43,012 nt of DNA, taken from positions 1 through 43,012 of IMG/VR virus record IMGVR_UViG_3300025769_000240; one strand, written 5' to 3'. A program made the translations under genes and the position numbers. Position 1 is the first letter of the stretch; each line of letters begins with the position of its first letter. Positions 8,185 through 32,147 of this stretch are shown here, one piece after another. The notes under the pieces were generated by a model. It was not told where the DNA came from and searched no databases. It saw nothing but the letters and a program-made list of their open reading frames with translations. This DNA is from a virus.

Positions 8185-8976
8185 TTATCCTATTTGTAAT
8201 TCATTCATTGCTTGTTCTTTATTAAAATATTTTAAATCGTCTCTAATTAATGCGATCCTACAATTCGTGTATACACTTAAAGTCTTTTGGATGTCAAATG
8301 ATTTCGCATAAGCATCTGGATCAAGTGCAACAATTAATGTCTCATATTGTTTTAAAATATCCATATAACTATCCAACAATGATGTTCCTAATAAAGCAAT
8401 GCCTGTACAAAAAGGTGCAACTGTAGTTGCTGATGTAGCATCTTCTACAATTACTCCTGTTGTGCCACTGCCGATTATAAAAGGGTGTGCAGCATTATCA
8501 TATCTATACCACTTAGGTTGTTGTTTAGAGTTCAATGCTCTACCCACTGCTCCTACTACTTCGTCTTCATGCACAATAGTAAATACTGCTCTATGCATTT
8601 TAACATCATAGTAAAATCTATCTTTATCTAATAAATAACCTTCTAAACAATTAAACTTCTCCAGGTAATTCATAGTTTCTTTAGAACGATTAGCTTCAAT
8701 GAAGTATTCTGGTAACACAAAAGGTAGCTTCTCATCATTTATGTCAAATGTATTTGACACAATTCGTGATAAGTCTTCTACACTTAGATCCTCTTCAGTA
8801 TTACCTTTAGCTTTACATGAAGCACTAAAACAATTCCACAATAAAAAACCCCTCCGTTTGGTTACCGAAAGGGTTTTAGTATGGCCACAGAAGATACAAT
8901 CTATTCTTTTGTTTGTACCTTCATCTAAATCTAGTTCTTTAATTCTTTCTAATTGATTATATAATCCATTTTGCAT
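8185..8976 (-). CDS. DNA primase (zinc-binding and Toprim)
   Basis: Makes RNA primers for replication. The 263-residue protein begins with a zinc-binding region C27-x2-C30-x18-C49-x4-C54 of the CHC2-like kind. It is followed by a linker and a Toprim fold: VIVEDA (E178) then LIVALDPDA (D219-x-D221), the acidic residues that bind metal. The ribosome site is weak (CAGATAG before the ATG), but no better start exists. Codons 75-80 contain the 18-bp palindrome described separately. The first gene of the replication block after the terminator/promoter region is a small ORF at 9051-9227; this primase follows. Confidence 0.9.
   Translation of the reverse strand: MQNGLYNQLERIKELDLDEGTNKRIDCIFCGHTKTLSVTKRRGFLLWNCFSASCKAKGNTEEDLSVEDLSRIVSNTFDINDEKLPFVLPEYFIEANRSKETMNYLEKFNCLEGYLLDKDRFYYDVKMHRAVFTIVHEDEVVGAVGRALNSKQQPKWYRYDNAAHPFIIGSGTTGVIVEDATSATTVAPFCTGIALLGTSLLDSYMDILKQYETLIVALDPDAYAKSFDIQKTLSVYTNCRIALIRDDLKYFNKEQAMNELQIG
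8742..8759. repeat. 18-bp palindrome, copy 1 (inside primase gene)
   Basis: TGTCAAATGTATTTGACA is an 8-bp perfect inverted repeat with a 2-base centre. The identical 18 bases occur again at 32130-32147 before the capsid gene; flanking bases differ. A third, degenerate copy (TGTCAAATGATTTCGCA) starts at 8292 in the same gene. This looks like a dimeric-protein operator, but the two sites could also be a recombination or processing signal. Confidence 0.6.
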
Positions 8977-9050
8977 ATCTATCTGGGGCAGGTTTTATAT
9001 ATACCCCCTCTACCACGTTGGTAGTAGTTATATCTATGAAATTAGATCTG

Positions 9051-9227
9051 TCAACTAAATTTTGAAATTTTATTATTTGCAAGGCTAATGTTTCGCATTG
9101 AAGTATTTATATGTTCTAAACATTCTAATTCAACTTTGCCTTCTAATTCATCTGAGTACACAAGCTTACTTTGTATAGACTCCATATCTTGAAATACTCT
9201 TCTGAGATCATTTAATATATTTTCCAT
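9051..9227 (-). CDS. Small hypothetical protein, 58 aa
   Basis: The frame starts at an ATG preceded by GAAGGAGAATAAA, one of the best ribosome sites in this arm, and ends in TGA at 9051. The product (MENILNDLRRVFQDMESIQSK...) looks like a single amphipathic helical hairpin, possibly a short coiled coil. I do not recognise it. It is the first strong frame after the candidate promoter at 9371-9398 and is followed by the primase 74 bases later. Confidence 0.65.
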   Translation of the reverse strand: MENILNDLRRVFQDMESIQSKLVYSDELEGKVELECLEHINTSMRNISLANNKISKFS

Positions 9228-9370
9228 TTTATTCTCCTTCTATATCTATCTCACTGGTGTAATGTTTTTGTACACCTCTTCTTGTAGTTTTACCATGAAC
9301 AAGTTGTATCGTAATGTCCTCTCCTACCAGAGACAACCCTGAACAATATATTACGAATACTAAATTAGTT

Positions 9371-9398
9371 ATAATAGCTTTTCATATATTCGACACAA
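9371..9398 (-). promoter_or_regulatory. Candidate sigma-70-type promoter for the replication genes
   Basis: On the minus strand TTGTGT (9398-9393) is followed after 16 bases by TATTAT (9376-9371). It sits just after the terminator at 9409-9447 and before the primase/helicase/polymerase block, where a restart of transcription would be expected. The region is AT-rich, so a chance match is possible. Confidence 0.42.
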
Positions 9399-9408
9399 CA
9401 AACCCCAT

Positions 9409-9447
9409 AAAAAAACATGGCAACTAAGTTTTATTTTAATTGCCATG
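9409..9447 (-). terminator. Rho-independent terminator ending the early small-gene transcript
   Basis: On the minus strand CATGGCAATTAA pairs with TTAGTTGCCATG (12 bp with one U-G wobble) around an 8-base loop, followed at once by seven T (the run of A at 9409-9415 on the plus strand). This is a classic intrinsic terminator for transcripts coming from 17.6 kb down. The polarity is clear because no T-run follows on the plus strand. Confidence 0.82.
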
Positions 9448-9523
9448 CCTACACATATAAGGATGTTCTTACATATATACGTAAACTTTTTGTAAAAACA
9501 ATCTTGACATTACGATTTTTATT

Positions 9524-9631
9524 CTAGCAAACACTAGTAACTGCACTTGCTAAATTAGATTTATAGGCCATGATGTACATCACAAACATTATTAAAAACA
9601 ATACCTTACCTATAATATTAACTATTTCCAT
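9524..9631 (-). CDS. Single-span membrane microprotein, 35 aa
   Basis: The frame starts at an ATG with GGGAGATTGAT upstream and overlaps the previous gene by 14 bases. Nearly the whole product is one hydrophobic helix (IIGKVLFLIMFVMYIMAY), so it should sit in the inner membrane. It has no recognisable family and is too short for default gene callers. The real-gene claim rests on the ribosome site, the overlap with its neighbour and the membrane helix. Confidence 0.55.
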   Translation of the reverse strand: MEIVNIIGKVLFLIMFVMYIMAYKSNLASAVTSVC

Positions 9632-9746
9632 TATCAATCTCCCTTTTCTCTTTTTTTCTGTTATACTTCTTTTTATTAGAAACTACCCTGGTATAAGTAT
9701 TTTGTTTCTCTCTTATCACTCTGGGTTTACTAATTTCTTTTTTCAT
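9618..9746 (-). CDS. Small basic protein, 42 aa
   Basis: The frame runs from ATG 9746 to TAA at 9618. The product is strongly basic (MKKEISKPRVIREKQNTYTR, then SNKKKYNRKKEKR). Small proteins with a TYTRVVSNKKKYNRKKEK-like core recur in marine phages in my recollection, but no function is known. It begins 2 bases beyond the upstream stop and overlaps the membrane microprotein downstream. Confidence 0.6.
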   Translation of the reverse strand: MKKEISKPRVIREKQNTYTRVVSNKKKYNRKKEKREIDNGNS

Positions 9747-9747
9747 T

Positions 9748-9942
9748 TTACCAATGCCTAAGCACTCCTGCCACTATAAAAAAACAAGTTGCCCAGGCTA
9801 CAAACTTTTCAATTAACTTTATGTATAATCCTACCTTAGCTTGTTTTTGCCGCAGGATCGCAGTCTTAGGTGTATCATCATCTGTTTCACCTATAGGATA
9901 ATCAATAGCTCTTGCAATTATTTTTTCTAACGAAGTGTACAT
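9748..9942 (-). CDS. Small protein with C-terminal membrane anchor, 64 aa
   Basis: A hydrophilic N-terminal 40 residues (MYTSLEKIIARAIDYPIGE...) precede a hydrophobic segment near residues 46-61 (FVAWATCFFIVAGVL), giving a tail-anchored topology. The start codon shares its A with the upstream stop (TAATG at 9942). I do not recognise it. Confidence 0.65.
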   Translation of the reverse strand: MYTSLEKIIARAIDYPIGETDDDTPKTAILRQKQAKVGLYIKLIEKFVAWATCFFIVAGVLRHW

Positions 9943-10265
9943 TAATTTAAATCCCTTGGATCTATAGGCTCATCATTTTCTAACTGTACCTTCTCTAAAT
10001 CTTTTAACACTTCTTGTACTTCTGGAAACATCACTTGCATAGTAGGAAAGTTGTTCCAATCTTGTTGTTCAAACTGTTCTACAAGTTTCATAAAGTCTTT
10101 ATGGTTAGTGTGTGTTCTCCATACAGTAAGTCCTAAGAATATAAATAGACTAGCTACATCCATAGGATGAACGTCTTTCCGGTTTAGGTTTATAACTGCA
10201 TTAATAAATTCTAAACTTATTTCTTTTACATCTTCATCTGATAAGTCATCACTTTTTGTAAACAT
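9942..10265 (-). CDS. Hypothetical protein, 107 aa
   Basis: A soluble helical protein with an acidic N-terminus (SDDLSDEDVKEISLEFINAVINL), a hydrophobic centre (MDVASLFIFLGLTVWRTH) and an acidic C-terminal tail. No family is recognised. It is tightly packed: its ATG overlaps the stop of the membrane microprotein upstream and its stop overlaps the ATG of the gene downstream. Confidence 0.65.
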   Translation of the reverse strand: MFTKSDDLSDEDVKEISLEFINAVINLNRKDVHPMDVASLFIFLGLTVWRTHTNHKDFMKLVEQFEQQDWNNFPTMQVMFPEVQEVLKDLEKVQLENDEPIDPRDLN

Positions 10266-10375
10266 TATTTAACTCCCTCTGTTTTTAAAAATATATAAAT
10301 TACAAGTAAGGCTGTAAACAAAAGTATAAACGAACAACTCCACCCAAATATTAAAGACACTTTAACTATGTCCAT
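10265..10375 (-). CDS. Single-span membrane microprotein, 36 aa
   Basis: ATG at 10375 with a strong AAGGAGAAATTAAA ribosome site, ending in a TAA that overlaps the next ATG (TAATG at 10265). The product is almost entirely a membrane helix (VSLIFGWSCSFILLFTALL) with a short basic end. No family is recognised. Confidence 0.58.
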   Translation of the reverse strand: MDIVKVSLIFGWSCSFILLFTALLVIYIFLKTEGVK

Positions 10376-10497
10376 TTTAATTTCTCCTTCCTTAATAATT
10401 CCTCTTTAAACTTTTTCCACTGTGGAGTTGTCGTGTCTACACGATCTACCTTTTTTTGTACAGGGGTAAAATTAAATTCATGTTGTGGGTTAGTCAT
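10366..10497 (-). CDS. Small hypothetical protein, 43 aa
   Basis: Starts immediately after the methyltransferase stop and runs to TAG at 10366. The product MTNPQHEFNFTPVQKK... ends in a basic helix (FKEELLRKEKLKW). Its last codons encode the ribosome site of the membrane microprotein that follows, a packing style shared across this operon. Confidence 0.55.
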   Translation of the reverse strand: MTNPQHEFNFTPVQKKVDRVDTTTPQWKKFKEELLRKEKLKWT

Positions 10498-12126
10498 TTA
10501 TACCTCCATGTTTTTTAGTATGTGTTCAATAACTCTTACAGTAAATCCATTGCCAAGCATTTTGTATCGTTGGGTATTTGATACTCCCTCAGTGTAGTTA
10601 TCTGGTACAGTTTGTAACCTCTCGCATTCTAATGGTGTAAGCTTACGCCAATGTAATTCATCAACACTATCCCACTCATGCCTGTCATAAGATAGTCTGC
10701 CACCAGATCTAACTGTTTTAGATTTATCTCTGATTTTACTTATCTGTATTGTATGTTGTTTAGAAGTATTAGCAGTTATGGTATTAGATTTATCATCTTT
10801 TCTTTCTACTAAATGTCTCATATGTCTAGGCGACCAATCCTTACCTGTCTTTTTCTTATGTTCTCGTCTTATCTTATTAGCTTCTGGTGTTCTCACCTCA
10901 GTCATAGATTTAACAGCAACTTTAGGTTCTCTGTTACCACCTCCCATTGAGTTAAGTGTAGGTGATTTACCATCCTCTGAATACACTCGCTTTAATATAT
11001 CATGGCCATTTATTTCTTTAGCAGTGCCAACTTGTTTCGGTGTATTGTAAGTTTCAATATATTGTTCTTTATTACTAGAAGTTAATGTAGGTGATTTACC
11101 ATTCTCTGAATAAACTCTTTGTTTAGTTTCATACACTCCATCCCTGTACTCAAACTCCATAATCTGTTTATCAAAGACATCAGTTTCAATACCTAATATA
11201 TCTTTAAGTTTAAACCAAATGTCATCACCAGGAATAGCGAAGCTAGTATCAGTTCTAAACCAATGCTCTACTTTAGTAACAGGCATATCAGTTTCTGTTG
11301 CTATCTGTTTATTTGTTTTTCCAGATTGTTCTTTCATAGACCTAAGTAAATATTGTAAACCTTTTATATCTACCTCATGCTTTCTAACTTTCACTTCTTC
11401 TACATTCATTCCTACTTTTTTAGGTGTGTTATAAGTTTCCAAAGGCACTAGTGTCATACCATTGTTGCCTGCACCTTTATACATAATAGCCGTACAAGTT
11501 AAAGATTTTTCATCAGGAAATTTAGTATGTTTTAAATTTCTTTCTGTATTCTTAGTTGGTTTTTCATTAGTATCTACTTCCAACACATCTCTCAATACAA
11601 TACCAAGATCTTTAGGCTGTTCAATTCCTGGTATGTTGGTCCAATACAATCTGTTTCTATTCTGTGCCGAAAGTAATGCAGAGTTAATCAGAATAGGCTC
11701 GATACCAAATAACCCACCACTTGTATACTCAGGGTATATGTTAGATACTTGTTCTGATATTACAGCTTGAAACTCTTTCTTCATACGAACATTCTCAAGC
11801 AAGAAGTATTTAGGTTTAACTTCTTTTAATATTCTAACAAACTCAAAGAACAATGCAGACCTAGGATCATCGAATGCTAATTGCTTACCTGCAAAACTAA
11901 ATCCTTGGCAAGGGCTACCTGCAACAATTAAATCAATCTCAGGTAAATCTTTACCTTTAATATCCTTAACATCTCCAAGTTGTATAGTATCTGGAAAATT
12001 CTTTTGTGCTATTTGTATTCCATATTTGTCTATCTCACTTGCATAATAAGTATCAACCTTGATACCTAAGTTCTTTAATGCAATTTGAGTACATGACATT
12101 CCGTCAAATAAACTAAGTACTTTCAT
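10498..12126 (-). CDS. DNA cytosine-5 methyltransferase with a long recognition region containing an HTH-like insert
   Basis: Adds a methyl group to cytosine C5, probably protecting phage DNA from restriction. Of 542 residues, the N-terminal part has motif I (LSLFDGMSC), the catalytic PCQ loop (GSPCQGFSF, Cys73), ENV near 112 and QNRNR near 157. The C-terminal LGNGF near 525 closes the fold. Between them lies a recognition region of about 320 residues, far longer than usual. It contains a helix-turn-helix-like stretch (about 252-315), two copies of RVYSE-(N/D)-GKSPTL (338 and 380) and repeated YNTPK-(K/Q)-VG. I chose the ATG at 12126 (GGAGAG upstream) over the GTG three bases earlier. No cognate restriction enzyme is seen, so it is an orphan enzyme here. 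Confidence 0.92.
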   Translation of the reverse strand: MKVLSLFDGMSCTQIALKNLGIKVDTYYASEIDKYGIQIAQKNFPDTIQLGDVKDIKGKDLPEIDLIVAGSPCQGFSFAGKQLAFDDPRSALFFEFVRILKEVKPKYFLLENVRMKKEFQAVISEQVSNIYPEYTSGGLFGIEPILINSALLSAQNRNRLYWTNIPGIEQPKDLGIVLRDVLEVDTNEKPTKNTERNLKHTKFPDEKSLTCTAIMYKGAGNNGMTLVPLETYNTPKKVGMNVEEVKVRKHEVDIKGLQYLLRSMKEQSGKTNKQIATETDMPVTKVEHWFRTDTSFAIPGDDIWFKLKDILGIETDVFDKQIMEFEYRDGVYETKQRVYSENGKSPTLTSSNKEQYIETYNTPKQVGTAKEINGHDILKRVYSEDGKSPTLNSMGGGNREPKVAVKSMTEVRTPEANKIRREHKKKTGKDWSPRHMRHLVERKDDKSNTITANTSKQHTIQISKIRDKSKTVRSGGRLSYDRHEWDSVDELHWRKLTPLECERLQTVPDNYTEGVSNTQRYKMLGNGFTVRVIEHILKNMEV

Positions 12127-12135
12127 CACTCTCTC

Positions 12136-12369
12136 CTATTTTAATTCTACTGTAACACCATTATTATCAGTATATAAGTATTTGGTTTTACTATTTTTAA
12201 ATAAAAGTATACTGCGTAAATCTTCAGCAGATATTGAAGTTAGTATTCTTTCAGCACCTGCTCTAAGTTCATCGTCTGTTTGACAAGTATCAAAATCTAA
12301 TTGATGTTTGTTGATGATGATAGTTGTTTCTACTTTTACTTCTATTGTTTCTTCTAATATTGCATTCAT
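12136..12369 (-). CDS. Hypothetical protein, 77 aa
   Basis: Small acidic protein with a beta-rich start (IEVKVETTIIINKHQLDF), a central helix (DDELRAGAERILTSISAEDLRSILL) and a C-terminal hairpin. Not recognised. Its ATG overlaps the upstream TAA, and the methyltransferase follows after 9 bases, so the two are probably co-translated. Confidence 0.68.
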   Translation of the reverse strand: MNAILEETIEVKVETTIIINKHQLDFDTCQTDDELRAGAERILTSISAEDLRSILLFKNSKTKYLYTDNNGVTVELK

Positions 12370-12509
12370 TAGTTACCTCCATTTGTATATAACAATATTT
12401 CTACTACACCGAATGCTATTATAAGTAAACTACCTATAAAAGGTACTAATAAAATTTTCAATGTAGTTATATTTATTTTATAGTTCTGTTCTTTAGTTAG
12501 TTTCTTCAT
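12369..12509 (-). CDS. Single-span membrane microprotein, 46 aa
   Basis: ATG at 12509 with a GGAGAATA ribosome site, ending in a TAA that shares its A with the next ATG. After MKKLTKEQNYKIN comes one membrane helix (LKILLVPFIGSLLIIAFGVV). No family is recognised; one of several tiny membrane proteins in this arm. Confidence 0.6.
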   Translation of the reverse strand: MKKLTKEQNYKINITTLKILLVPFIGSLLIIAFGVVEILLYTNGGN

Positions 12510-12661
12510 TATTCTCCCTCCAGGATTTCAGGTTTTTTATACCACTTACGAGTTACCTCATCAAAGTATACATTCTCTAAAGGCCTACTGTTGCCACCTG
12601 TATGCGACATCTTCTTGCCTTTGCTTTTTCTATTCTTACCTTTAATTAATTCTTTAGCCAT
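12509..12661 (-). CDS. Small basic hypothetical protein, 50 aa
   Basis: The longer frame opens at 12709, but the ATG at 12661 is preferred because ATGGAGAAATATA places a clear ribosome site before it and removes an unlikely hydrophobic leader. The product MAKELIKGKNRKSKGKK... is strongly basic in its first half and has an aromatic C-terminus (YFDEVTRKWYKKP). Not recognised. Confidence 0.62.
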   Translation of the reverse strand: MAKELIKGKNRKSKGKKMSHTGGNSRPLENVYFDEVTRKWYKKPEILEGE

Positions 12662-12986
12662 TATATTTCTCCATATGTTTAAGTATAAATTTAATATTAT
12701 TAGTAACAAATTTTAAATCTTTTTCTAACACAGCTATTCGATCTTCTAACAATTCTTTTTCAAAAGATGCATCAGAAAAATTTCGTAACCTACCAAGTAC
12801 ATCATCCTTATAATATCCTTTATTGTAGGCATCATCACCAAAAGCTATCTCGAATACTTCCTCGATAAATTTTTGATCTGTCATAGTTCCTCTCCATTCA
12901 AACATTTGTTTTAAATTCATATTAGATTTTTTATCGTTTAGTTCTTTTATCTTTTTAAGACCTATTATGTTTAGGGGATCAGTCAT
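12654..12986 (-). CDS. Hypothetical coiled-coil protein, 110 aa
   Basis: The ATG at 12986 overlaps the upstream stop as ATGA and has GGAGGG in front, so it is preferred over the in-frame ATG at 13007. The protein is charged and helical. The C-terminal 45 residues (LLEDRIAVLEKDLKFVTNNIKFILKHMEK) have the heptad pattern of a short coiled coil. Not recognised. Confidence 0.68.
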   Translation of the reverse strand: MTDPLNIIGLKKIKELNDKKSNMNLKQMFEWRGTMTDQKFIEEVFEIAFGDDAYNKGYYKDDVLGRLRNFSDASFEKELLEDRIAVLEKDLKFVTNNIKFILKHMEKYNG

Positions 12987-13234
12987 TTTACCCTCCATAT
13001 ACGCCATTGATTATCACCAACCTTTCTACTCACATACTTGTGACCAGAATTACTTCTTTTGGCACGAGTAAATGCATGAGATAGAAAAGCTTTTACTAAC
13101 TTATAGTCTTTTACTAATATAGAATCATTAACTTCAAATTCTAACTCGTGAAAACCATATTTACTTAGTTGTGGTCTACCTTGTCCTGTATCTTTAGGCA
13201 TAGGTATGTCTTTTTCTACTTTTAGTTCAGTCAT
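12983..13234 (-). CDS. Hypothetical small phage protein, 83 aa
   Basis: The product has GRPQLSKYGFHELEFEVNDSILVKDYKLVKAFLSHAFTRAKRSNSGHKYVSRKVGDNQWRIWRVK in its body (residues 19-82). This beta-helix-beta layout, ending in a basic W-R-I-W-R-V strand, recurs in uncharacterised phage proteins. A nucleic-acid-binding role is possible given the basic helix, but this is a guess. It overlaps both neighbours by 4-8 bases. Confidence 0.68.
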   Translation of the reverse strand: MTELKVEKDIPMPKDTGQGRPQLSKYGFHELEFEVNDSILVKDYKLVKAFLSHAFTRAKRSNSGHKYVSRKVGDNQWRIWRVK

Positions 13235-13673
13235 TTTTAATCTCCTCTAAAATTGTTTCTATACATTCTTTTGCATAGCCATAATTGTTATTATCAATAT
13301 GCATTTTAGCCATTCTCAACATATGAGTTACTCTATCTCCAATACCTGCTTTGATACTAGATTTTCTAATAGTTTCTTGATATTCACTAATCATTTTTTG
13401 ATATAATTCAATAGTCTTTTTATACCCTGCATTATAATAAGGCTCTACATCCAGGTAAATTCTCCAATCACTTGCGTGTTCTTTCGGAATATCTCTCCAA
13501 TAAGTGCTAGAAGGTTTACCTGTAATCTTGGCTACCTCAGAAGCTTTACCAGATGGTCTTACTAATAACTTATAGCTATCTTTATTAAGATATTTTTTAA
13601 GATTTTCTAGTGTAGTATTACCTTCTTCATTGTTAGGTATCTTAGCTATAAATCTTGTAGTTCTTTTACTCAT
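13227..13673 (-). CDS. Hypothetical protein, 148 aa
   Basis: The ATG at 13673 is chosen because AAAGGAGAAGAACT precedes it; the in-frame ATG at 13697 has no ribosome site. The start MSKRTTRFIAKIPNNEEG is basic, the middle resembles a small alpha-beta fold (YKLLVRPSGKASEVAKITGKP) and the last 70 residues are helical. Not recognised. It overlaps the genes on both sides by 8 bases. Confidence 0.66.
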   Translation of the reverse strand: MSKRTTRFIAKIPNNEEGNTTLENLKKYLNKDSYKLLVRPSGKASEVAKITGKPSSTYWRDIPKEHASDWRIYLDVEPYYNAGYKKTIELYQKMISEYQETIRKSSIKAGIGDRVTHMLRMAKMHIDNNNYGYAKECIETILEEIKND

Positions 13674-13800
13674 AGTTCTTCTCCTTTTTGGTATCATGGT
13701 TTAATAAATATAATGCTGTGTGATACCAATTCAACAGCTTATATGTTCTCTTATATTCTCTGCAATACTGCAGGAATTTTGGATTATGGGTTACACTCAT
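13666..13800 (-). CDS. Small aromatic basic protein, 44 aa
   Basis: ATG at 13800 with AGAGAGGAGAATAGATA in front; ends in TAA at 13666, overlapping the next gene by 8 bases. The product MSVTHNPKFLQYCREYKR... is rich in Tyr, Lys and His and would form one amphipathic helix. Not recognised; support is the ribosome site and the overlap pattern. Confidence 0.58.
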   Translation of the reverse strand: MSVTHNPKFLQYCREYKRTYKLLNWYHTALYLLNHDTKKEKNYE

Positions 13801-13817
13801 TATCTATTCTCCTCTCT

Positions 13818-14009
13818 TTACCAAATACAAATTTGCTTATCACTAGCAAAATCTTGTAGTTCTAATCTTTCCTTCTCTTCCATTACATCATGGTCAAGAA
13901 TTGTTACTTCAATAGTTTCAGCTAAATGTTTTTCTTCAGGTGTATCACCACTTGCATAAACAAAATCTAATACACCACCACTTATTTCAACTGTAATTTT
14001 AATTGCCAT
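13818..14009 (-). CDS. Hypothetical protein, 63 aa
   Basis: Small acidic protein with an initial beta strand (MAIKITVEISGGVLDFVYA) then an acidic helix region. The start has GGAGAATATATA upstream and shares its A with the previous stop (TAATG). Not recognised. Confidence 0.62.
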   Translation of the reverse strand: MAIKITVEISGGVLDFVYASGDTPEEKHLAETIEVTILDHDVMEEKERLELQDFASDKQICIW

Positions 14010-14158
14010 TATATATTCTCCATAAATAATTCAAATAAAGTATCTTCACTTAGGCCTTCTGCATTGATACCTTTTGTCTTTAGGTACTCAATTTGTTTTG
14101 ACCTGGTATCACCACTTTCAGTCATGTCGTGAAACCAAGTATCAAATAGTTTACTCAT
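14009..14158 (-). CDS. Small hypothetical protein, 49 aa
   Basis: ATG at 14158, overlapping the upstream gene's end by 8 bases, with GGAGATTTATG in front; ends in the TAA overlapping the next ATG. The product MSKLFDTWFHDMTESGDTRS... is an acidic helical peptide. Not recognised. Confidence 0.56.
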   Translation of the reverse strand: MSKLFDTWFHDMTESGDTRSKQIEYLKTKGINAEGLSEDTLFELFMENI

Positions 14159-14630
14159 CATAAATCTCCAAATCATTTTCAAGATATCCTGTAAAACCCA
14201 TACCGTCTTCTCGGTAGTGCCATTGGATACCTAGATCATCGTTTTTCTTAAAATTAAATTTCCAATCTAGTTTTTCAAGAATGCCTAGAGGTGGCGACCA
14301 TGCAGTATCAAAACGATATGTTACATAATCTCCCTCATCTTCTACTTCGACATAATCAGGATCTAATTCCCACTTAGTACCCCAATGCAGGTTTTTCCAA
14401 TCATACCAATTATCTGCACCATATTCTATTTTCCATAACTTAGAGTTAGCTTTCTGCTCATCCGATTTTAAATCTTCAGAGCCACTTACAGTTCCCTCTA
14501 ATTCTTTAGGCATAGGATATATTTTATTAAAATCAAACTTACTTTTTTTAGATGAAACAAATTTGATAAACTCTTTTACTTTCTTTTCGTCACCACTTAC
14601 TGTGACTTCATTTTGACACCAATTAGGCAT
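14151..14630 (-). CDS. Api92/DUF1281-like ferredoxin-fold protein
   Basis: A 159-residue protein with the two signatures of this phage and plasmid family: MPNWCQNEVTVSG at the N-terminus, and a central YGADNWYDWKNLHWGTKWE followed by FDTAWSPPLGILEKL. It should adopt the ferredoxin-like fold assigned to Api92-type proteins; biological function is unknown to me. It overlaps both neighbours by 8 bases. Confidence 0.83.
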   Translation of the reverse strand: MPNWCQNEVTVSGDEKKVKEFIKFVSSKKSKFDFNKIYPMPKELEGTVSGSEDLKSDEQKANSKLWKIEYGADNWYDWKNLHWGTKWELDPDYVEVEDEGDYVTYRFDTAWSPPLGILEKLDWKFNFKKNDDLGIQWHYREDGMGFTGYLENDLEIYDE

Positions 14631-14844
14631 TGTCTTCTCCTTCTTTTACGATTCCTACAAATTCTGGAATCTCATAGTTATAATTAGGTTTAGCTTGTTT
14701 GTACTCAACCTCGCTTAGTTTGTTATATGCACTTAATAAATCTTTATCTACATCCTCATCAAATAGTCCTTCGGTATAAGGTTTAACTACTTGAATAAGT
14801 TCGTACACTTCTTCTATCGTTAGCTTTAATTCATTTATGTGCAT
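14623..14844 (-). CDS. Hypothetical protein, 73 aa
   Basis: Acidic helical protein (INELKLTIEEVYELIQVVKPYTEG...). The ATG shares its A with the upstream stop (TAATG) and has AGGAGAGC in front. Not recognised. Confidence 0.62.
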   Translation of the reverse strand: MHINELKLTIEEVYELIQVVKPYTEGLFDEDVDKDLLSAYNKLSEVEYKQAKPNYNYEIPEFVGIVKEGEDNA

Positions 14845-15752: not shown

Positions 15753-15781
15753 TTTTGATCTCCTATTTTATTTTATCCGAA

Positions 15782-16435: not shown

Positions 16436-16439
16436 TTTT

Positions 16440-16724: not shown

Positions 16725-16741
16725 TATTAAAAATCCTTATG

Positions 16742-16996: not shown

Positions 16997-17020
16997 TTTT
17001 TTCACCTATTTTTTAAAGTT

Positions 17021-17056: not shown

Positions 17057-17110
17057 CACTTGCATTCTATCCATAGCTAAAAGCTTTGAATAAAATTCTT
17101 TGTAAGATAC

Positions 17111-18272: not shown

Positions 18273-18301
18273 TTGACACTACATGCAAATCAACTTACAA
18301 T
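18273..18301 (+). promoter_or_regulatory. Strong sigma-70-type promoter for the rightward arm
   Basis: TTGACA (18273-18278), a 17-base spacer and TACAAT (18296-18301) form an almost ideal bacterial promoter, the best match I found in the window. It stands exactly at the left end of the rightward gene set. Transcription would start near 18308, only a couple of bases before the ATG at 18310. Confidence 0.78.
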
Positions 18302-18309
18302 ATGTATTC

Positions 18310-18846
18310 ATGACGAATGGGAAAGCTGAGTATTTAAAGAATTGGCATAAGAAAAGAATGAATGCTGATCCTATTGAATACAAATTAGATACAATGTTGA
18401 GGGGTGCTAAGAATAGAGCACGAACTAAGAGACTTAGGTTTAATCTGCATATAGACTATGTGAGAACTATAGCCAAAGAATACTGTCCCTACTTTCCAGA
18501 GATTAAATTAGCTTATAAGACTGATAAAAGAAAAGGTTGGAATCTAAGCTCACCATCCCTGGATAGAATAATACCTGAAAAAGGTTATGTTGAGGGTAAT
18601 GTAGAGATTATATCTATGAAAGCTAACTTAATTAAATCAAGTGCAGCATCAATAGATCTCTATAGAGTGGCTGATAGGTTATATGAGTTTGAAAGGGATA
18701 ATGAAGTGCTGTCCATCTTACCTAGTGAATCACTAGATGAATATAAACAGAGGGTAGGGTATTATAACCCCACCAACTTAGTTGGATACAGTTATACACG
18801 GTTTCTCAGATTTGTCAACAACAAAATTTTAAGGGGTTTGAAATGA
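18310..18846 (+). CDS. HNH-fold endonuclease-like protein, first rightward gene
   Basis: The frame is open from ATG 18283, but that lies inside the promoter spacer, so I take the ATG at 18310 (178 aa). No ribosome site precedes it, and translation may be leaderless. The core S-LDRI-x4-KGYVEGNVEIIS-x2-ANLIKSS (about residues 88-118) is the pattern of a family of small phage proteins related to HNH nucleases. The N-terminal half is basic (KKRMNADPIEYKLD...NRARTKRLRF). A classical His-Asn-His triad is not obvious, so catalysis is uncertain. It overlaps the next gene as ATGA. Confidence 0.6.
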   Translation: MTNGKAEYLKNWHKKRMNADPIEYKLDTMLRGAKNRARTKRLRFNLHIDYVRTIAKEYCPYFPEIKLAYKTDKRKGWNLSSPSLDRIIPEKGYVEGNVEIISMKANLIKSSAASIDLYRVADRLYEFERDNEVLSILPSESLDEYKQRVGYYNPTNLVGYSYTRFLRFVNNKILRGLK

Positions 18847-24492: not shown

Positions 24493-24494
24493 AC

Positions 24495-26570
24495 ATGGCT
24501 GAAGAAAAAACTACAGAAACAGAACTAGAAATGGAATTAGAAGATAGTCAAAAAATGACATTATCTTCTTATATTAGAGATAAATTTAATTACTCATATG
24601 ACTCTCGTTACTCTCAAGAAGATAGATGGATGACAGCGTATAGAAACTATAGAGGTATCTATGGTTCAGAAACACAATTTACAGAAACAGAAAAAAGTCA
24701 AGTATTTTTAAAAGTTACAAAAACAAAAGTAACTGCTGCTTATGGTCAGATTATTGATGTATTATTTGCAGGACAAAAATTTCCATTAGGAGTTGATGCA
24801 ACAAGATTACCAGATGGTGTAGAAGAATCTGTACACTTTGATCCTAAGAATCCAACTCAACCACAAGATGATCCTAACCAAGGTAGTTTATTTCCACCAG
24901 GTTCTAAAGAAGAAGAGTTAGAGTTAGGAGCATTAAAAGAATTAGCAGATGATTTAGAATTAAAAGAAGGTGCAGGTGTTACTCCTACATCTATTACGTA
25001 TCATCCTGCAGAAGAAGCAGCTCGTGCTATGGAAAAAAAGATACTTGATCAATTAGAAGAATCTTCAGCTTCTAAACATTTAAGATCAGCAGCATTTGAA
25101 ATGTCCTTATTTGGTACAGGAATACTAAAAGGACCATTTGCTCAAGACAAAGAATACCCTAGATGGGAACAAGATGAAGAAGGTAATGGTACATATACAC
25201 CTGAAATCAAAACAGTTCCTAGACTAGAGTTTGTTTCTTGTTGGGATTTCTATCCTGATCCTGCAGCTAATAATATGGATGAGGTAGAATATGTGATTCA
25301 GCGACATAAATTAAACCATGCTGATATGAGGGCACTAAAGAATCGCCCTCTGTTTGACGAAGATGCCCTAGACGAATGTATCGAAATGGGCACTAATTAC
25401 ACCAGACAATGGTGGGAGGATGATTTAGATGACTACGATTCGACAAATGTTAGCGTTGATCGCTACGAAGTCCTTGAGTTTTGGGGCAACATTGATAGAA
25501 CAGTTGCAGAAGACGCAGGCTTGGATATACCTAGAGAATACTCAGACGTGGATTTGGTTCAAATCAACGCTTGGGTTTGTAACGACAAAATTTTACGGTT
25601 GGCGTTTAATCCTTTTATGCCTATCCGTATTCCTTATTTTGCTGCTCCTTATGAGTTAAACCCTTACTCTTTCTTTGGAGTAGGACTAGCAGAAAACATG
25701 GTAGACACACAACAGCTAATGAATGGCTTTATGCGAATGGCTGTTGATAATGCTGTTCTATCGGGTAACCTGATATTTGAGATTGATGAAACAAATCTCG
25801 TACCAGGTCAAGACCTAGAAGTATACCCTGGTAAGATATTTAGGAGACAAGGTGGAGCACCTGGTCAAGCACTATTTGCTACACAGTATCCTAATGTATC
25901 TTCTCAGAATTTGATGATGTTTGATAAAGCAAGAGCCTTGTCCGATGAATCTACAGGCATTCCGTCTTTCTCACATGGTCAGACTGGAATACAAGGAACC
26001 GGTAGAACAGCGGCAGGGATATCTATGCTAATGGGTGCAGCTCAGATATCTATTAAAACAGTGGTTAAAAATATAGATGACTATCTATTACAACCACTAG
26101 GTGAATCTTTCTATGCCTTTAATCAGCAATTTGATTTTGATCCTGATGTACAAGGCGATATAGAAATAAAAGCTAGAGGTACAGAAAGCCTTATGCGTAA
26201 CGAAGTAAGAAGTCAAAGACTATTACAACTTATGCAAATTGGTTCTAATCCTGCACTAGCACCTTTTGTAAAGTTCCCAGTAATATTAAGAGAGATAGCA
26301 CACTCATTTGATCTTGATGCTGAGAAGTTTGTAAATGATGAAAGAGAAGCTTTAAGACAAGCTAAAGTTATGCAAGCATCTGGAATGATGCAAGGACCAC
26401 CACAACAACCACCAGGGGCAGGAGCACCACCTCCACCAGAAGGAGGAGGAACAGTTCCACCAACTAGTCCTGCAGGTACAGGCAATAGTCAGATAGGTCC
26501 TGGAGGAGCACCTGAACCAGGAATGCCAGGATTTTCAGGAAGGCCACCTAGTGAAGGAGAAATACAGTGA
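24495..26570 (+). CDS. Portal protein (head-to-tail, podovirus type)
   Basis: A 691-residue protein forming the ring through which DNA enters. It has an acidic N-terminus, then RDKFNYSYDSRYSQEDRWMTAYRNYRGIYG and VTKTKVTAAYGQIIDVLF, typical of large podoviral portals. The long crown/stem body continues to the hinge region with DESTGIPSFSHGQTGIQGTGRTAAGISMLMGAA, a conserved portal segment. The last 60 residues are Pro/Gly-rich and probably disordered. It follows terminase by two bases and overlaps the next gene by 4. Confidence 0.9.
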   Translation: MAEEKTTETELEMELEDSQKMTLSSYIRDKFNYSYDSRYSQEDRWMTAYRNYRGIYGSETQFTETEKSQVFLKVTKTKVTAAYGQIIDVLFAGQKFPLGVDATRLPDGVEESVHFDPKNPTQPQDDPNQGSLFPPGSKEEELELGALKELADDLELKEGAGVTPTSITYHPAEEAARAMEKKILDQLEESSASKHLRSAAFEMSLFGTGILKGPFAQDKEYPRWEQDEEGNGTYTPEIKTVPRLEFVSCWDFYPDPAANNMDEVEYVIQRHKLNHADMRALKNRPLFDEDALDECIEMGTNYTRQWWEDDLDDYDSTNVSVDRYEVLEFWGNIDRTVAEDAGLDIPREYSDVDLVQINAWVCNDKILRLAFNPFMPIRIPYFAAPYELNPYSFFGVGLAENMVDTQQLMNGFMRMAVDNAVLSGNLIFEIDETNLVPGQDLEVYPGKIFRRQGGAPGQALFATQYPNVSSQNLMMFDKARALSDESTGIPSFSHGQTGIQGTGRTAAGISMLMGAAQISIKTVVKNIDDYLLQPLGESFYAFNQQFDFDPDVQGDIEIKARGTESLMRNEVRSQRLLQLMQIGSNPALAPFVKFPVILREIAHSFDLDAEKFVNDEREALRQAKVMQASGMMQGPPQQPPGAGAPPPPEGGGTVPPTSPAGTGNSQIGPGGAPEPGMPGFSGRPPSEGEIQ

Positions 26571-26809
26571 GTCCAGAAGTAGCTAGAAAATTATTAGTAG
26601 TAGCTAATAATAAACAATCTATAGATGCTTTATTTGATTACGCAGAAGAAAGAATTAAATCTCATGTAAAAAATCTTATAAGAGAAACAGACCATAACAA
26701 GATAATACAAATACAAGGTAGCATACATGAGTTACAAAGATTTGCTACGTTCAGAGATGAAGTAATACAAAAAGCTAAAGAGGGGAAAAATGGAACAGGT
26801 ATTAGCTAA
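26567..26809 (+). CDS. Small helical protein after portal, 80 aa
   Basis: Starts at a GTG that overlaps the portal stop (GTGA), with GGAGAAATACA in front; no ATG is available. Helical and charged (ALFDYAEERIKSHVKNLIRETDHNKIIQIQGSIHELQRF), coiled-coil-like. It resembles small portal-adjacent proteins of unknown role. Ends 20 bases inside the next gene. Confidence 0.7.
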   Translation: MSPEVARKLLVVANNKQSIDALFDYAEERIKSHVKNLIRETDHNKIIQIQGSIHELQRFATFRDEVIQKAKEGKNGTGIS

Positions 26810-29800
26810 TACGAATGAACAAACTGATTCTGTTTTATCAAGAGCAAAACAAAATTTTGTACCTAGTAGTAAACAGTTAATAAAAGATACAGTAGAAATG
26901 ATAACAAACCCAGTACAGACTGCTAAAAGTTTGTATGAGTTAGGATCAGGAATAGTACAGTTAGCAATACCAGGTGAGCAAGGAAATGAAGACATGGCAA
27001 GAGCTGTCGGTCAACATTTTGCAGATAGGTATGGTAGTATTGAAAAAGCTAAAGAAACATTTGCAACAGATCCTGCAGGATTTGCAGTAGATGCTTTAGG
27101 TGTAATTACAGGTGGTGCTTCTTTAGGTGTTGGTGTTGCTAAAGCAGGAGCTAAGGCAGTTAATAAAGTAGGAAAAAACATAAATAATACGGATATACTT
27201 AAAACTGCACCTATGACAACAGTAGATCAAATGGCAGAATTAACAGCTAGTGTTAAAGTCAAAGATGATGTTATTACTAATCAAATAAAAGAATTTAATA
27301 AAGGTAAAAATTTAAAATCTAATAAATGGACAGAACCTTTATGGTATCATGGAACAGGACAGGGTAATTTAAAATCTCTTCAAAGTAAACCTGACATGAG
27401 ATATGATCCAGAGCAGGGAACTGCTTTTGGTACATATTTAACTCCAGATATTTATGATGCATCTACTTATGGTCCTTATTTGTACACAGTAAGAGTAAAA
27501 AAAGATTTAAAAGTATGGGGCGGAGAAAATGCAAAAAAAAATAAGAGGGTTAGAACTAATCCTAGAGGTGATGAAGATATGCTTTATAAGCCTATTGAGA
27601 TAGGAAAAATTGATACTAATGTAACTCCATCTATGCTTAAAGAATACGAAAAAAGTTTAATATCCTATTATAGAGGATCTAGTAATATGATTCCTGATAT
27701 GCTAGAGGATTTTAAAAAAACAGGTCGTTTAAAATATGGATTACCTCCTGAAGATATGACAAGTATTTTAAGAAAAGGTGGTTATCAAGCAGTTACAAGT
27801 GGCAGTGGCAATCATTTAATAATGCTTAACCCTAAAAAAGATATAAAAATTGAAGGTGTGGCTGATAATTCTAATGTTGCTGTAAATGTAGGTACACATA
27901 TGGGACATGAGTCTAAGTTAATACAAGCAGAAAGAATGGCACCATTAGACCAAGCTATGCAGTCTAAAAGACCTAAGTTTACTCGTTATGATGATGAATT
28001 TGGTGGTGACAACACTACATATAAAAAGTTAGATATTAACACTGAAGGTTTGCCTGAAATAGATCCAACTAAAGAAGCACGTATAAATTCTTTAACATCT
28101 ATATTAAATCAAGGAGATTTAACTAGAAAAGAAACAGCAGGAGTTATAGAAAAATTAAGATCGTTAGGAGTACCTAATTTAGCAAAAGGAGGAACAGTTA
28201 TGGGATTAGCAACAGGGGGCACAATAGTAGGTAAAGGAGAGGGTGACGGTTTAAAAGATCCGTCTATATTAGATCCAAAAACATCTAAAGAAAAAGCTAA
28301 AGATAAAGATATTAAGAAAAAAGTTAGTGGTGTTGCAAAAAAACCACAGTCAAGTAATACTAACATTCAAACAGCTATGTTACTAGAGCCTGAAAAACTA
28401 TTAAAAAAATATGAAAAACCTATTATGGCTAACGAAGGTGCAATACCTGTAACTGAAGAAGAATTTACACCTAGTGATTACTTTAAAACTGAAATGATGG
28501 GGCAATGGTTATTTGCTGAAGGTAGCACAGGTGATAAAGATGGCCAAGAAACTAATCAAGCATTTAAAGGAATACATATAGATTCTTATCCAGAGTTTGC
28601 TGAAGAAATAAAACAAGGCACATTAACAGACGAACAAGTAGCAGAAATTATGTATAGACAATATACAGGTCAAAATGTTTCAGATGATAAGCCTAGTAAA
28701 TTTAGAAATTTAAGCCAATTAGAAACTGTAAGTCCTGAAGCTGCTAAATTATTATTTATGGATGCAGGATACACAGGACAAAATGCAGGAGCTATTAAAG
28801 ACTTACAAAAATATTTAGTATCTAAAAATAAAAAAATTGAAGTAGATGGTTTATTAGGAGAAAAAACATTAGAAGTCATGAATGATTTTGATGCAGAGGA
28901 ATATAGAAAGTATTTAGGAACATTAGATAGATACTCAGGTGAAAAAGGTAGTAAAGTATACAATAGATTTTTTACTGAAGAAGAAAGACAGCAATTAGGT
29001 TTATATGAAAAAGAATTAACTACTATGGCTAAAGGCGGTTCTATAGATATACAAAAATTTATGGAAGGTGGCCTAGCAGATAATGCTGATGATACACCAG
29101 GTGCTACAGAAAGTGAAGTAGCTGATGATATACCTGCTATGATATCTGAAGGTGAACTAGTAGTTCCTGCTAATGTAGTTCGTTACCATGGTTTATCTAA
29201 ATATGAGAACATGCGTAAAACAGCATTAAACGCTTTAGATGAACTAGAAGATAATGGGCAGATAAGACCTGTTGATGAAGATGGTACACCTATAGTTAAA
29301 GATGTAAAAAAACAAACAGATGAAGTAATGGCCAGTAAAGGTGCTACTGTAGCTAGATATAATGAGGGTGGTTCTCCTACAGTAGAAGAAGAACCTAAAA
29401 CAAATTTTCCAAGAAGAGATGAAAAAATAATAGGTAGACCTGTTGATCCTGTTGGTCCTAGAGTAACCACTAGAGAAGGACAAACAATAACACCTGACGA
29501 TAGTGGTAATAAAGCAACACTTACAACACCAGAAGGTAGAAACTATAGAGTAACTAATCCTAATACAAAGATAACAGCCACAGGTCCAAGAACTACAGGC
29601 ATTGTAGGTGGTAATTATACAGGCGTTGATTTAGAAAATATGCCAGGCTTTGGCGTAGATAGATCAGGTAGCACTCCACCAAAACCAAGTACCACAGAAC
29701 AACTATTATCAGGCGTTGCAACAGTTGCAGCATTAGATAAATTATTTCTTGATGGTGCAATAACAGAATCAGTTTTTAATTGGGCTAAAAACAATATATT

Positions 29801-31118
29801 TGATCCTGTAGGAAAATTTTTAGGATTTGATAAAGCTGCTGCTGCTAATGCAGGTATTTTAACAAGTGCATCTACGGCTGCTATGACAGGTACAAGTATT
29901 ACAGTAGGCAACACTATAGTTCCTATTGGTTCAACTGTTACACCTATAGGTAAAGCAGCAGAAGCAGGAGGAATAATTCCATTTAGAGGATCACCTGGAT
30001 CTGCTTTTACAACAGTAGTAGACGGAAAAACTATTCAATTAACACCAGGAGAAGCTTATATAGTTTCTGGAGGAAAACAAGGTGTTTATGATGGTAATTT
30101 AACTAATGTAAACACTTCTGGTAGTGCATCTACTAAAACAGGAGCAGATCTTACAGGCGAAGCTCCTATGTCAAGTAATGGTGTATGGAATTGGAAAACA
30201 GGTTTAGCTGCAGTAGGTGCAGGATTATCACTATATGATATTATAGAAAATGGACCTAGTGTTGGTAATGTTGCAGGACTAGGCTACTCAACAGGTGTGT
30301 TAGCACAAGGTGGACTACTTGGTGCAGGAGCTAAAGCAGCAACTACAGGTACAGCTTTAGGTAGTGCGGTTTCAGTACTAGGTTACGTAGCACTAGCTGC
30401 AGGTGTAATAAGTTTATTTAAAGGTCCTCCTAGTACTTACGTAGGAGAAGCAGCGATTGATTTTGATAAAGATGTATATAGTCCTGATGATATTATAGTA
30501 GGTGGTTTTACAGGATCTAAATTTTCTCAAGAAAATAGAGATGGAGCAGAGGCTTTAATAAATACTGCAGGAGGTTACGTAGCAGCCTTAGAAGAGTCTC
30601 TAGAAATAAATATAGGCGGAGAGTTATTTATAGATGTAGGTAATGAGTTTGGCTTACGATATGGTTACGTAGATGGTTATGATGAACTAGGTATGTATAA
30701 ATATCACGAAAAAGATTTAGATTATAAATTACTTCATGGTCAAGGACAAGTAGGTAAAGGTTTACGAGGAGACGATGCAGCAGAAAAAATGATGAACAAA
30801 ATTAATGACGATATAAATGTTGTTACTATGTTTGCATTAGCAGATAAAGCTGCAGGAGGAGAAGGTTATGCAACATTTGATAAAATGGGTGAATATCGTA
30901 AAAAAATATCTGTTTTGTCTACTTATAGACCAGGTATGGCAGGAGCAGGCAGTCAAGCAGTACTAACAGACTATGAAAGAAATCTTTTAGATGGATTTCA
31001 AAAGAAAGAATTTGCTCAAGTTACAGGAGAAGAACTTGCAGCATTAATGCCTATCTATGACAAGATAGCACCAGTGCAACAACAGAATAGTTTTAATTTT
31101 AACTCATTAGCTATGTAA
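26790..31118 (+). CDS. Large multidomain virion protein, probably injected with the DNA (1442 aa)
   Basis: Visible in order: a helical N-terminus with a glycine-rich hydrophobic segment (92-118); an ADP-ribosyltransferase-like segment, LWYH187GTG then GTYLTPD (214-220), ending GYQAVTSGSGNHLIMLNP (about 331-350); short KGG/EGG spacers (about 467, 745, 858); a GH108 muramidase-like segment with its peptidoglycan-binding half (about 540-700: LTDEQVAEIMYRQY, DLQKYL...VDGLLGEKTLEVM); IPAMISEGELVVPANVVRYHG (about 780-800), common in marine phage virion proteins; and a glycine-zipper membrane-like segment (about 1155-1210). The sum suggests an ejected internal or lytic protein. Catalytic residues of both enzyme-like parts are uncertain; the usual Glu of the last transferase strand is replaced by Asn/His. 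Confidence 0.72.
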   Translation: MEQVLANTNEQTDSVLSRAKQNFVPSSKQLIKDTVEMITNPVQTAKSLYELGSGIVQLAIPGEQGNEDMARAVGQHFADRYGSIEKAKETFATDPAGFAVDALGVITGGASLGVGVAKAGAKAVNKVGKNINNTDILKTAPMTTVDQMAELTASVKVKDDVITNQIKEFNKGKNLKSNKWTEPLWYHGTGQGNLKSLQSKPDMRYDPEQGTAFGTYLTPDIYDASTYGPYLYTVRVKKDLKVWGGENAKKNKRVRTNPRGDEDMLYKPIEIGKIDTNVTPSMLKEYEKSLISYYRGSSNMIPDMLEDFKKTGRLKYGLPPEDMTSILRKGGYQAVTSGSGNHLIMLNPKKDIKIEGVADNSNVAVNVGTHMGHESKLIQAERMAPLDQAMQSKRPKFTRYDDEFGGDNTTYKKLDINTEGLPEIDPTKEARINSLTSILNQGDLTRKETAGVIEKLRSLGVPNLAKGGTVMGLATGGTIVGKGEGDGLKDPSILDPKTSKEKAKDKDIKKKVSGVAKKPQSSNTNIQTAMLLEPEKLLKKYEKPIMANEGAIPVTEEEFTPSDYFKTEMMGQWLFAEGSTGDKDGQETNQAFKGIHIDSYPEFAEEIKQGTLTDEQVAEIMYRQYTGQNVSDDKPSKFRNLSQLETVSPEAAKLLFMDAGYTGQNAGAIKDLQKYLVSKNKKIEVDGLLGEKTLEVMNDFDAEEYRKYLGTLDRYSGEKGSKVYNRFFTEEERQQLGLYEKELTTMAKGGSIDIQKFMEGGLADNADDTPGATESEVADDIPAMISEGELVVPANVVRYHGLSKYENMRKTALNALDELEDNGQIRPVDEDGTPIVKDVKKQTDEVMASKGATVARYNEGGSPTVEEEPKTNFPRRDEKIIGRPVDPVGPRVTTREGQTITPDDSGNKATLTTPEGRNYRVTNPNTKITATGPRTTGIVGGNYTGVDLENMPGFGVDRSGSTPPKPSTTEQLLSGVATVAALDKLFLDGAITESVFNWAKNNIFDPVGKFLGFDKAAAANAGILTSASTAAMTGTSITVGNTIVPIGSTVTPIGKAAEAGGIIPFRGSPGSAFTTVVDGKTIQLTPGEAYIVSGGKQGVYDGNLTNVNTSGSASTKTGADLTGEAPMSSNGVWNWKTGLAAVGAGLSLYDIIENGPSVGNVAGLGYSTGVLAQGGLLGAGAKAATTGTALGSAVSVLGYVALAAGVISLFKGPPSTYVGEAAIDFDKDVYSPDDIIVGGFTGSKFSQENRDGAEALINTAGGYVAALEESLEINIGGELFIDVGNEFGLRYGYVDGYDELGMYKYHEKDLDYKLLHGQGQVGKGLRGDDAAEKMMNKINDDINVVTMFALADKAAGGEGYATFDKMGEYRKKISVLSTYRPGMAGAGSQAVLTDYERNLLDGFQKKEFAQVTGEELAALMPIYDKIAPVQQQNSFNFNSLAM

Positions 31119-31130
31119 GCACTGTTTAAT

Positions 31131-31170
31131 GGCTACCTACTAACCCCTAGCAATAGGCAACTGAGTAGCC
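31131..31170 (+). promoter_or_regulatory. Nested hairpin in the scaffold gene leader
   Basis: Outer stem GGCTAC (31131-31136) with GTAGCC (31165-31170); inner stem CCTA-GCAA-TAGG (31146-31157) closed by a GNRA-type GCAA tetraloop. No T-run follows. It lies between the 1442-residue gene and the scaffold start (AAAGGAGAAATAA before the ATG) and may set scaffold translation or mark an RNA cut site. Confidence 0.5.
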
Positions 31171-31187
31171 CCATAAAGGAGAAATAA

Positions 31188-32060
31188 ATGTCAGAAGAAG
31201 TACAAGTAAAAAAAGATGAAGCCACAGGCGATACAATTATGAAAAAGCCTGTAAGGTACAAAAGAGCAGAACCAACTATGCAAGAGTTAGCTGCTGAAGA
31301 AGAATTAAAAGCAAGAGAAGGTTCTACAGAAGAAACAACTGAAGAAACTACAGAAGAACCTGCTAATGCTGAAGAAGCATCATTTAAAAAAAGATATGGT
31401 GATTTAAGAAGACATGCTCAAAAAGTTGCAGATGAAAAAGATGCAGAGCTTGAAAAAGTTAAAAAACAGTTAGCAGAAGCTACTAAGAAACAAATAAAGC
31501 TTCCTAAAACAGATGAAGAACTAGAAGCATGGTCTGCTGAATATCCGGATGTAGCAAGAATAATAGAAACTATTGCTATTAAAAAATCAAAAGAAATGAA
31601 TGCATCTATTGAAGAACGATTAGAATCTATTGCTGTAAAAGAACAAAAGTCAGCAAAACAAATAGCAGAAGCAGAGCTATTAAGATTACATCCTGATTTT
31701 GAAGACATTAGAAATGATGTTAAATTTCATGATTGGGCTGAAGAACAACCTGAGTATATTCAAAAAGCTTTATACGATAACGAAACAGATGCTAAAGCTG
31801 CATCTCGTGCTATTGATTTATATAAAGCAGATATGGGTATTACAGGTAAGAAAAAAGCAAAGTCTACAGATGCTGCAAAAGCAGTAAAAACAAAAGGTGG
31901 TTCTACCCCTTCAGACACTGCTAGTTCTTCAGATATCATAAAAGAGTCTGATGTTGCAAGAATGACATCACAAGAATATTCAGCAAATGAAGAAGCTATT
32001 GCTAATGCAATACGTTCTGGAAACTTTGAATATGATGTTAGTGGAGCAGCTAGACAGTAA
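31188..32060 (+). CDS. Capsid scaffolding protein
   Basis: Guides capsid assembly and is later lost. The 290-residue protein is highly charged and helical. An acidic Glu/Thr-rich region (about 40-70, TEETTEETTEEPANAEE) precedes a long coiled coil (FKKRYGDLRRHAQKVADEKDAELEKVKKQLAEATKKQ). A C-terminal low-complexity linker and a short end (SANEEAIANAIRSGNFEYD) would contact the capsid protein. Position right before the capsid gene fits. Confidence 0.85.
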   Translation: MSEEVQVKKDEATGDTIMKKPVRYKRAEPTMQELAAEEELKAREGSTEETTEETTEEPANAEEASFKKRYGDLRRHAQKVADEKDAELEKVKKQLAEATKKQIKLPKTDEELEAWSAEYPDVARIIETIAIKKSKEMNASIEERLESIAVKEQKSAKQIAEAELLRLHPDFEDIRNDVKFHDWAEEQPEYIQKALYDNETDAKAASRAIDLYKADMGITGKKKAKSTDAAKAVKTKGGSTPSDTASSSDIIKESDVARMTSQEYSANEEAIANAIRSGNFEYDVSGAARQ

Positions 32061-32061
32061 T

Positions 32062-32086
32062 AATAGGTTGACAAAACCTATTTTTT
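32062..32086 (+). terminator. Rho-independent terminator between scaffold and capsid genes
   Basis: AATAGGTT (32062-32069), a 5-base loop and AACCTATT (32075-32082), running into six T. It follows the scaffold stop by one base. Its loop side also spells TTGACA (32068-32073), which with TATGTA 16 bases later could be the -35/-10 of a weak capsid promoter, so terminator and promoter would overlap. Confidence 0.75.
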
Positions 32087-32120
32087 GTATATGTATGTAA
32101 CATATACTACAATCGTAGTA
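32087..32120 (+). repeat. Two overlapping inverted repeats before the capsid gene
   Basis: GTATATG (32087-32093) with CATATAC (32101-32107), and TACTAC (32105-32110) with GTAGTA (32115-32120). They share bases and so exclude each other as stems. Either could be a binding site or an RNA switch. Confidence 0.4.
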
Positions 32121-32129
32121 GGCCGAAAG

Positions 32130-32147
32130 TGTCAAATGTATTTGACA
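32130..32147. repeat. 18-bp palindrome, copy 2 (capsid leader)
   Basis: TGTCAAATGTATTTGACA, base-for-base identical to 8742-8759 and in the same orientation. It lies 145 bases before the capsid ATG, in non-coding DNA, where an operator or processing signal is plausible. Confidence 0.65.

Follow-up and report, generated by a model that had tools for sequence, protein, structure and literature searches.

A conserved 18-bp palindrome in the primase gene and capsid leader of HMO-2011-type phages, a possible site for a dimeric DNA-binding protein

HMO-2011-type phages are a dominant group of ocean viruses (PMC9038755). Here we describe an 18-bp palindrome, TGTCAAATGTATTTGACA (the dyad), present as two exact copies in a 43,012-nucleotide (nt) stretch of viral DNA (IMG/VR virus record IMGVR_UViG_3300025769_000240, positions 1 to 43,012; hereafter the window), one near the start of the DNA primase gene and the other in the non-coding leader of the major capsid gene. 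The window derives from an HMO-2011-type phage, as it encodes a DnaJ-like polymerase insert together with an HMO-2011-like capsid protein and primase. Its capsid protein is 72% identical to that of CRP-1 and 70% identical to that of HMO-2011, while its polymerase matches DNA_pol_A (E-value 8e-49) and carries, at the expected place (residues 300-342), a partial DnaJ (CXXCXGXG) domain, PF00684, that scores below the cut-off. The primase gene comes first in its gene run, followed by those of a helicase, a 255-amino-acid protein and the DNA polymerase.

A sequence-only reading of the window had reported the two copies, their common orientation, their unlike flanks and their perfect 8-bp arms around a 2-base centre, all of which were borne out by exact matching and by a listing of palindromes. 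The copies are the only identical pair among window palindromes with arms of at least 8 bp. One further exact 18-bp repeat occurs in the window (34163/41294, in tail genes); exact repetition alone is not special, and what sets the dyad apart is the perfect palindromic symmetry and the conservation of both copies. Because the 18-mer has 20 exact matches in 257 Gb of prokaryote genomes, the chance of meeting it is ~8e-11 per base, which amounts to ~3e-6 for one more copy within 43 kb. These matches are scattered across unrelated phyla, and a host regulator site was rejected on that ground. The third, degenerate copy claimed in the primase gene by the sequence-only reading turned out to be a single half-site, TGTCAAAT, at which 64%-identical primases have GATA for GACA; it is probably not functional.

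The exact 18-mer was found in 31 IMG/VR contigs, lying in a homologous capsid leader in 14, in a homologous primase gene in 14 and in one unrelated gene family in the remaining three. A variant scan with YGTCAAATACRTTTGACA returned 52 stretches, of which 7 were unrelated and 45 came from the same phage lineage (23 leaders, 20 primases and 2 copies of a third site). To keep the search independent of the dyad, a dyad-free pattern, TAGGCCGA-N15-45-CCCACCCTA, was used to find leaders, and primases were sought by protein; capsid relatives were taken among the matches listed and are a lower bound. The dyad was present in all 25 capsid-linked leaders recovered in this way and, at the same codons, in all 22 clade primases found (identity down to 64%; one arm base changed in two of them); two primases of 35% identity were devoid of it. 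A sister contig, G001, has both sites, with AT instead of GT at the centre of the leader copy. Contig G014 (58 kb; primase 64% and capsid 86% identical) has the primase site, the leader site with one base changed, and a third, near-exact copy (CGTCAAATACATTTGACA) located between two late genes directly before a Shine-Dalgarno sequence, bringing the number of copies to three in G014 compared to two each in the window and G001. On the same yardstick and with one mismatch allowed, the chance of this third copy is ~2.5e-4; the leader and third sites were present again in a 36-kb contig. The product of the gene after the third dyad (L159-L161 of G014, 39719-40693) is rich in Asn and Thr and has a hydrophobic stretch at its N terminus. 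The sites are real, non-random and conserved at homologous places, and the test that could have refuted the sequence-only reading, loss of the palindrome in relatives, did not do so, as relatives keep it at both the primase and the capsid positions.

We next consider what is being conserved. Pattern analysis of 17 distinct 42-bp contexts from three loci revealed that the arms GTCAAA/TTTGAC are invariant, save for one base in one context, and that the four central bases and all flanks vary. Asymmetric centres were found both as TACG and as CGTA, which is the same site turned round. Conserved arms, a tolerant centre and freedom of orientation are the traits of a symmetric operator. An RNA-hairpin operator, in contrast, would be expected to keep its loop or bulge and to let its stem covary, the reverse of the near-invariant stem and variable loop observed. 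Between the window primase gene and those of 64% identity, no identical run is longer than the 18 nt of the dyad, and the flanks diverge immediately. With near-invariant arms, variable centre and flanks and a centre found in both orientations, the palindrome looks less like an RNA hairpin than like duplex DNA recognised by a dimeric protein. We infer protein binding, as well as the mode of action and the binder proposed below, and put at about one in two the probability that a dimeric and probably phage-encoded protein binds TGTCAAA-N4-TTTGACA in double-stranded DNA in a sequence-specific manner.

Promoter scans revealed no promoter-like sequence overlapping either window site, and a reading of TTGACA as a promoter -35 element was rejected as no fitting -10 was present. 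Neither site resembles an intrinsic terminator, the arms being A+T-rich with no T run after them, and both were absent from the output of terminator scans.

The capsid copy lies in a structured leader (fold z-score -3.9), whose core stem covaries across 28 leaders, with 78 of 84 pairs in CUNNN/NNNAG compared to 53.8 +/- 3.2 in shuffles. A terminator-like hairpin (32062-32082) precedes the leader. Within it, the dyad is predicted to serve also as the apical helix of an RNA hairpin domain, for which the window, G014 and L035 give similar folds. Within this same RNA frame, the L035 leader (800-1075) has a different hairpin helix, AGAAU..AUUCU, in the place of the dyad. As L035 keeps the fold, the leader RNA domain does not require the dyad sequence, which argues that this sequence is conserved for something other than the leader fold. 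Many HMO-2011-type phages (L034-L113) have a structured leader before their capsid gene, among them CRP-1 and HMO-2011 (L136, L137); neither the window nor any of 18 related loci matched an Rfam family, and this covarying RNA is apparently undescribed. An internal loop of the CC / NNAC form recurs in several of the leader-RNA hairpins, and motifs of a similar kind can be seen upstream of the Rhizobium phage RHph_N3_13 capsid gene.

That the palindrome folds in mRNA, where an RNA-binding protein or nuclease would read the hairpin in primase and capsid transcripts, is in our view unlikely. All sites are transcribed, the leader copy belongs to a structured domain, the primase copy of the window folds well (-14.3 kcal/mol, z-score -4.3) and the third copy lies just ahead of a ribosome-binding site. 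However, the fold of the third copy is not significant (z-score -0.5), no ribosome-binding site lies near either window site, and the pattern of kept arms and varying loop is opposite to the trace that readers of hairpin loops leave. An extended hairpin at the window primase site was rejected, the flanks involved being different in other primases. Another RNA-based possibility, pairing in trans of the primase mRNA with the capsid leader, takes its appeal from the fact that the window primase is read from the minus strand, making the two RNAs exact complements over 18 bases. It is highly improbable given the mismatched centres in relatives (leader AT versus primase AC in G001; leader ACG versus primase ACA in G014).

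If the dyad is a protein-binding DNA site, as we favor, which protein might read it? Scans of most early and mid-genome proteins against Pfam, PHROGs and NCBIfam yielded no clear transcription factor. A gene-content comparison identified several genes private to dyad-bearing genomes, among which the gene for the 255-amino-acid protein lies in the replication cassette. This protein matches DUF3102 just below threshold, and DUF3102 proteins are also its best viral structure matches, with weak E-values. Two blocks, LPFSRQMAHNYRKIA (residues 67-81, 6694-6738) and VKSISEALKRLRK (residues 96-108), are invariant while overall identity drops to 38%, a comparison partly biased by the use of FSRQMAH as one of two scan patterns, although the six-genome alignment predates the scan. 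AlphaFold modeled the protein with a mean predicted local distance difference test score (pLDDT) of 59 and its N-terminal domain at about 80-90; in this model a short turn leads into the first block, which is helical (helices 59-66 and 71-82; local confidence about 80-90), giving a putative helix-turn-helix. VIA-align yielded sigma-factor chains at noise level (top Z 4.3). The 255-amino-acid protein is the best candidate binder; that it does bind the dyad is possible but rather doubtful. We recovered its homologues from 22 contigs, and almost all of these contigs also came up in the search for dyad-bearing primases.

Several observations weigh against a DNA site read by this protein. The co-occurrence of protein and dyad falls within one lineage and is not independent evidence, and no solved homologue of the protein was found, a Foldseek search of the PDB returning nothing with an E-value <1. 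The sites are transcribed and do not lie at recognisable promoters. In two primases, L226 and L227, a Phe-to-Val change breaks one base of an arm (TGTCAAATACAGTTGACA), and the L035 leader is devoid of the dyad even though its capsid protein is 96% identical to that of the window. Finally, the identity among primases is only mildly improbable given codon constraint alone. This last point also speaks for a coincidence fixed by other constraints, in which an ancestral chance match would have been held in the primase gene by the peptide SNTFD and in the leader by RNA pairing. The unrelated family mentioned above (L004, L008, L009), whose gene opens with the exact 18-mer (ATG TCA AAT GTA TTT GAC ...), apparently by coincidence, lends this reading some color. 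It nevertheless appears improbable, as it calls for an ancestral match of probability 3e-6, leaves the near-exact third copy in G014 to chance, and relies on an RNA pairing for which, judging from L035, the arm sequence is not required.

Palindromes of their own, in multiple copies, were found in six relatives: G008, G009, G011, G012, CRP-1 (L269, L270) and HMO-2011 (L271, L272). Mostly GTC...GAC, these number 4 to 11 per relative and lie chiefly in the early region; in the integrase-bearing relatives they measure 16-19 bp and occur both inside and between genes (e.g. TTGTCCAAGCTTGGACAA seven times in G008 and TGTCGGACCGTCCGACA eleven times in G012; TGTCCAACGTTGGACA in CRP-1 and TAGTCCGACAGCGGACTA in HMO-2011); five of the six relatives (all except G011) also encode an integrase, and their palindromes are possible immunity operators. 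The window dyad has another core and sits in the capsid leader as well, and was rejected as the same element since sequences and places differ. It might still be a relic or variant of such operators, left behind by a repressor now gone, as the integrases and early-region dyads of these relatives would allow. This seems improbable too: besides the differences in core and place, the dyad is strictly conserved across 64% primase divergence, and a homologue search revealed no integrase of the CRP-1/HMO-2011 type in the window, G001 or G014. The literature searched on HMO-2011-type phages does not mention promoters, repressors or palindromes, and neither the 18-mer nor the CRP-1 dyad was found in the papers searched.

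Among known systems, dimeric helix-turn-helix phage regulators such as lambda CI and that of 434 bind symmetric operators of about 14-18 bp that have a tolerant centre and cluster at early promoters. The dyad has the same two-fold symmetric arms and tolerant centre but is located in a coding region and in leaders. The parS and KorB-type palindromes of ParB-family proteins, which possess a helix-turn-helix, are orientation-free, as is the dyad, and often lie inside genes; no ParB-family match was found for the candidate protein (only DUF3102, below cut-off), nor any ParA among the proteins scanned. The stoperators of Cluster A mycobacteriophages (L5, Bxb1) are short sites away from promoters, within or between genes, at which the bound immunity repressor blocks elongation; their sequence specificity differs between relatives, and they are asymmetric, numerous and mostly in one orientation relative to transcription (PMC6550527, PMC9283540). 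Like them, the dyads lie within transcription units (primase, capsid leader) with no promoter-like site overlapping. Unlike them, the dyad is symmetric, its asymmetric centres are found in both orientations, its copies number two or three, and no integrase or repressor was identified here. Because stoperators are asymmetric and numerous, the dyad is not a member of the mycobacteriophage stoperator system.

The sequence-only reading had also entertained a recombination or processing site, a role for which we found no support. A site for recombination, nuclease action or replication, working at the DNA level and not in gene control, would be in keeping with the presence of one dyad within the replication cassette and with a clade-specific HNH/endonuclease VII-like protein (18283-18846, plus strand), which is the first gene of the rightward operon and is found in dyad-bearing genomes but not in other compared relatives. 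As two or three dispersed sites and an 8+2+8 layout would be at odds with both a single origin and a tyrosine recombinase core, and as no rearrangement between sites was seen in the relatives read, we consider it even less probable than coincidence or a relic. Features of the locus are collected in Table 1. Upstream of the primase gene, on the minus strand, a 15-bp terminator-like hairpin (9413-9450) was noted within a strongly structured stretch (9228-9560; z-score -4.9). In the zinc-finger part of the primase (8836-8876, minus strand), AAAACCC ... GGGGTTTTTT resembles an intrinsic terminator inside the coding region, and the same part holds a 17-nt run, GGGGTTTTTTATTGTGG, identical between 64%-identical primases. 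A C5-cytosine DNA methyltransferase of 543 amino acids, with a middle unusually long relative to the profile, is encoded at 10498-12129 (minus strand).

Table 1 Coordinates of the dyads and associated features in the window
Feature	Position	Strand	Remarks
Candidate binder, 255 amino acids, weakly DUF3102-like	6169..6936	-	Clade-specific; invariant blocks; predicted helix-turn-helix
DNA primase gene holding the first dyad	8185..8976	-	38% identical to annotated HMO-2011 and HTVC033P primases
Single half-site TGTCAAAT	8292..8299	+	Claimed earlier as a third copy; not conserved in 64% primases
18-bp dyad, primase copy	8742..8759	.	Exact match; TGTCAAATGTATTTGACA on plus strand, TGTCAAATACATTTGACA on primase sense strand
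Non-coding structured capsid leader	32061..32292	+	232 nt before the capsid ATG at 32293
RNA hairpin domain	32118..32162	+	Outer stem UAGG/CCUA, CC / CCAC internal loop, dyad as predicted apical helix
18-bp dyad, capsid-leader copy	32130..32147	.	Exact match; kept in 25/25 capsid-linked leaders
Core stem of leader	32192-32197 with 32231-32236	+	CUGAUG with CAUCAG
Major capsid (coat) protein gene	32293..33366	+	Phage_capsid_4

Of the link between replication and capsid expression proposed in the sequence-only reading, the part supported is that the capsid leader shares with an early replication gene a site conserved for the sequence itself; the regulator acting through it stays at the level of a candidate. 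With one site near the primase start and the other in the capsid-gene leader, both would lie where transcription enters a gene block, and a bound dimer may act within the transcription units, either by standing in the way of elongation as a roadblock or as a local repressor or activator. The most economical mechanism, by analogy to stoperators (PMC6550527), would be a dimer that blocks or modulates elongation. Protein bound in this manner could act as a common gate to the replication and structural gene blocks. The complete scheme, in which a phage DUF3102-like protein would bind TGTCAAA-N4-TTTGACA at two or three sites internal to transcription units and coordinate replication with capsid expression, the leader bases doubling as structured RNA, is slightly more doubtful than binding by the candidate itself. 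If true, a single capsid-leader sequence would serve a protein as DNA and the leader fold as RNA, and the DUF3102-like family, hitherto without a function, would gain one. The conserved site common to replication and capsid genes provides a testable handle on the timing of infection, with one named candidate regulator.

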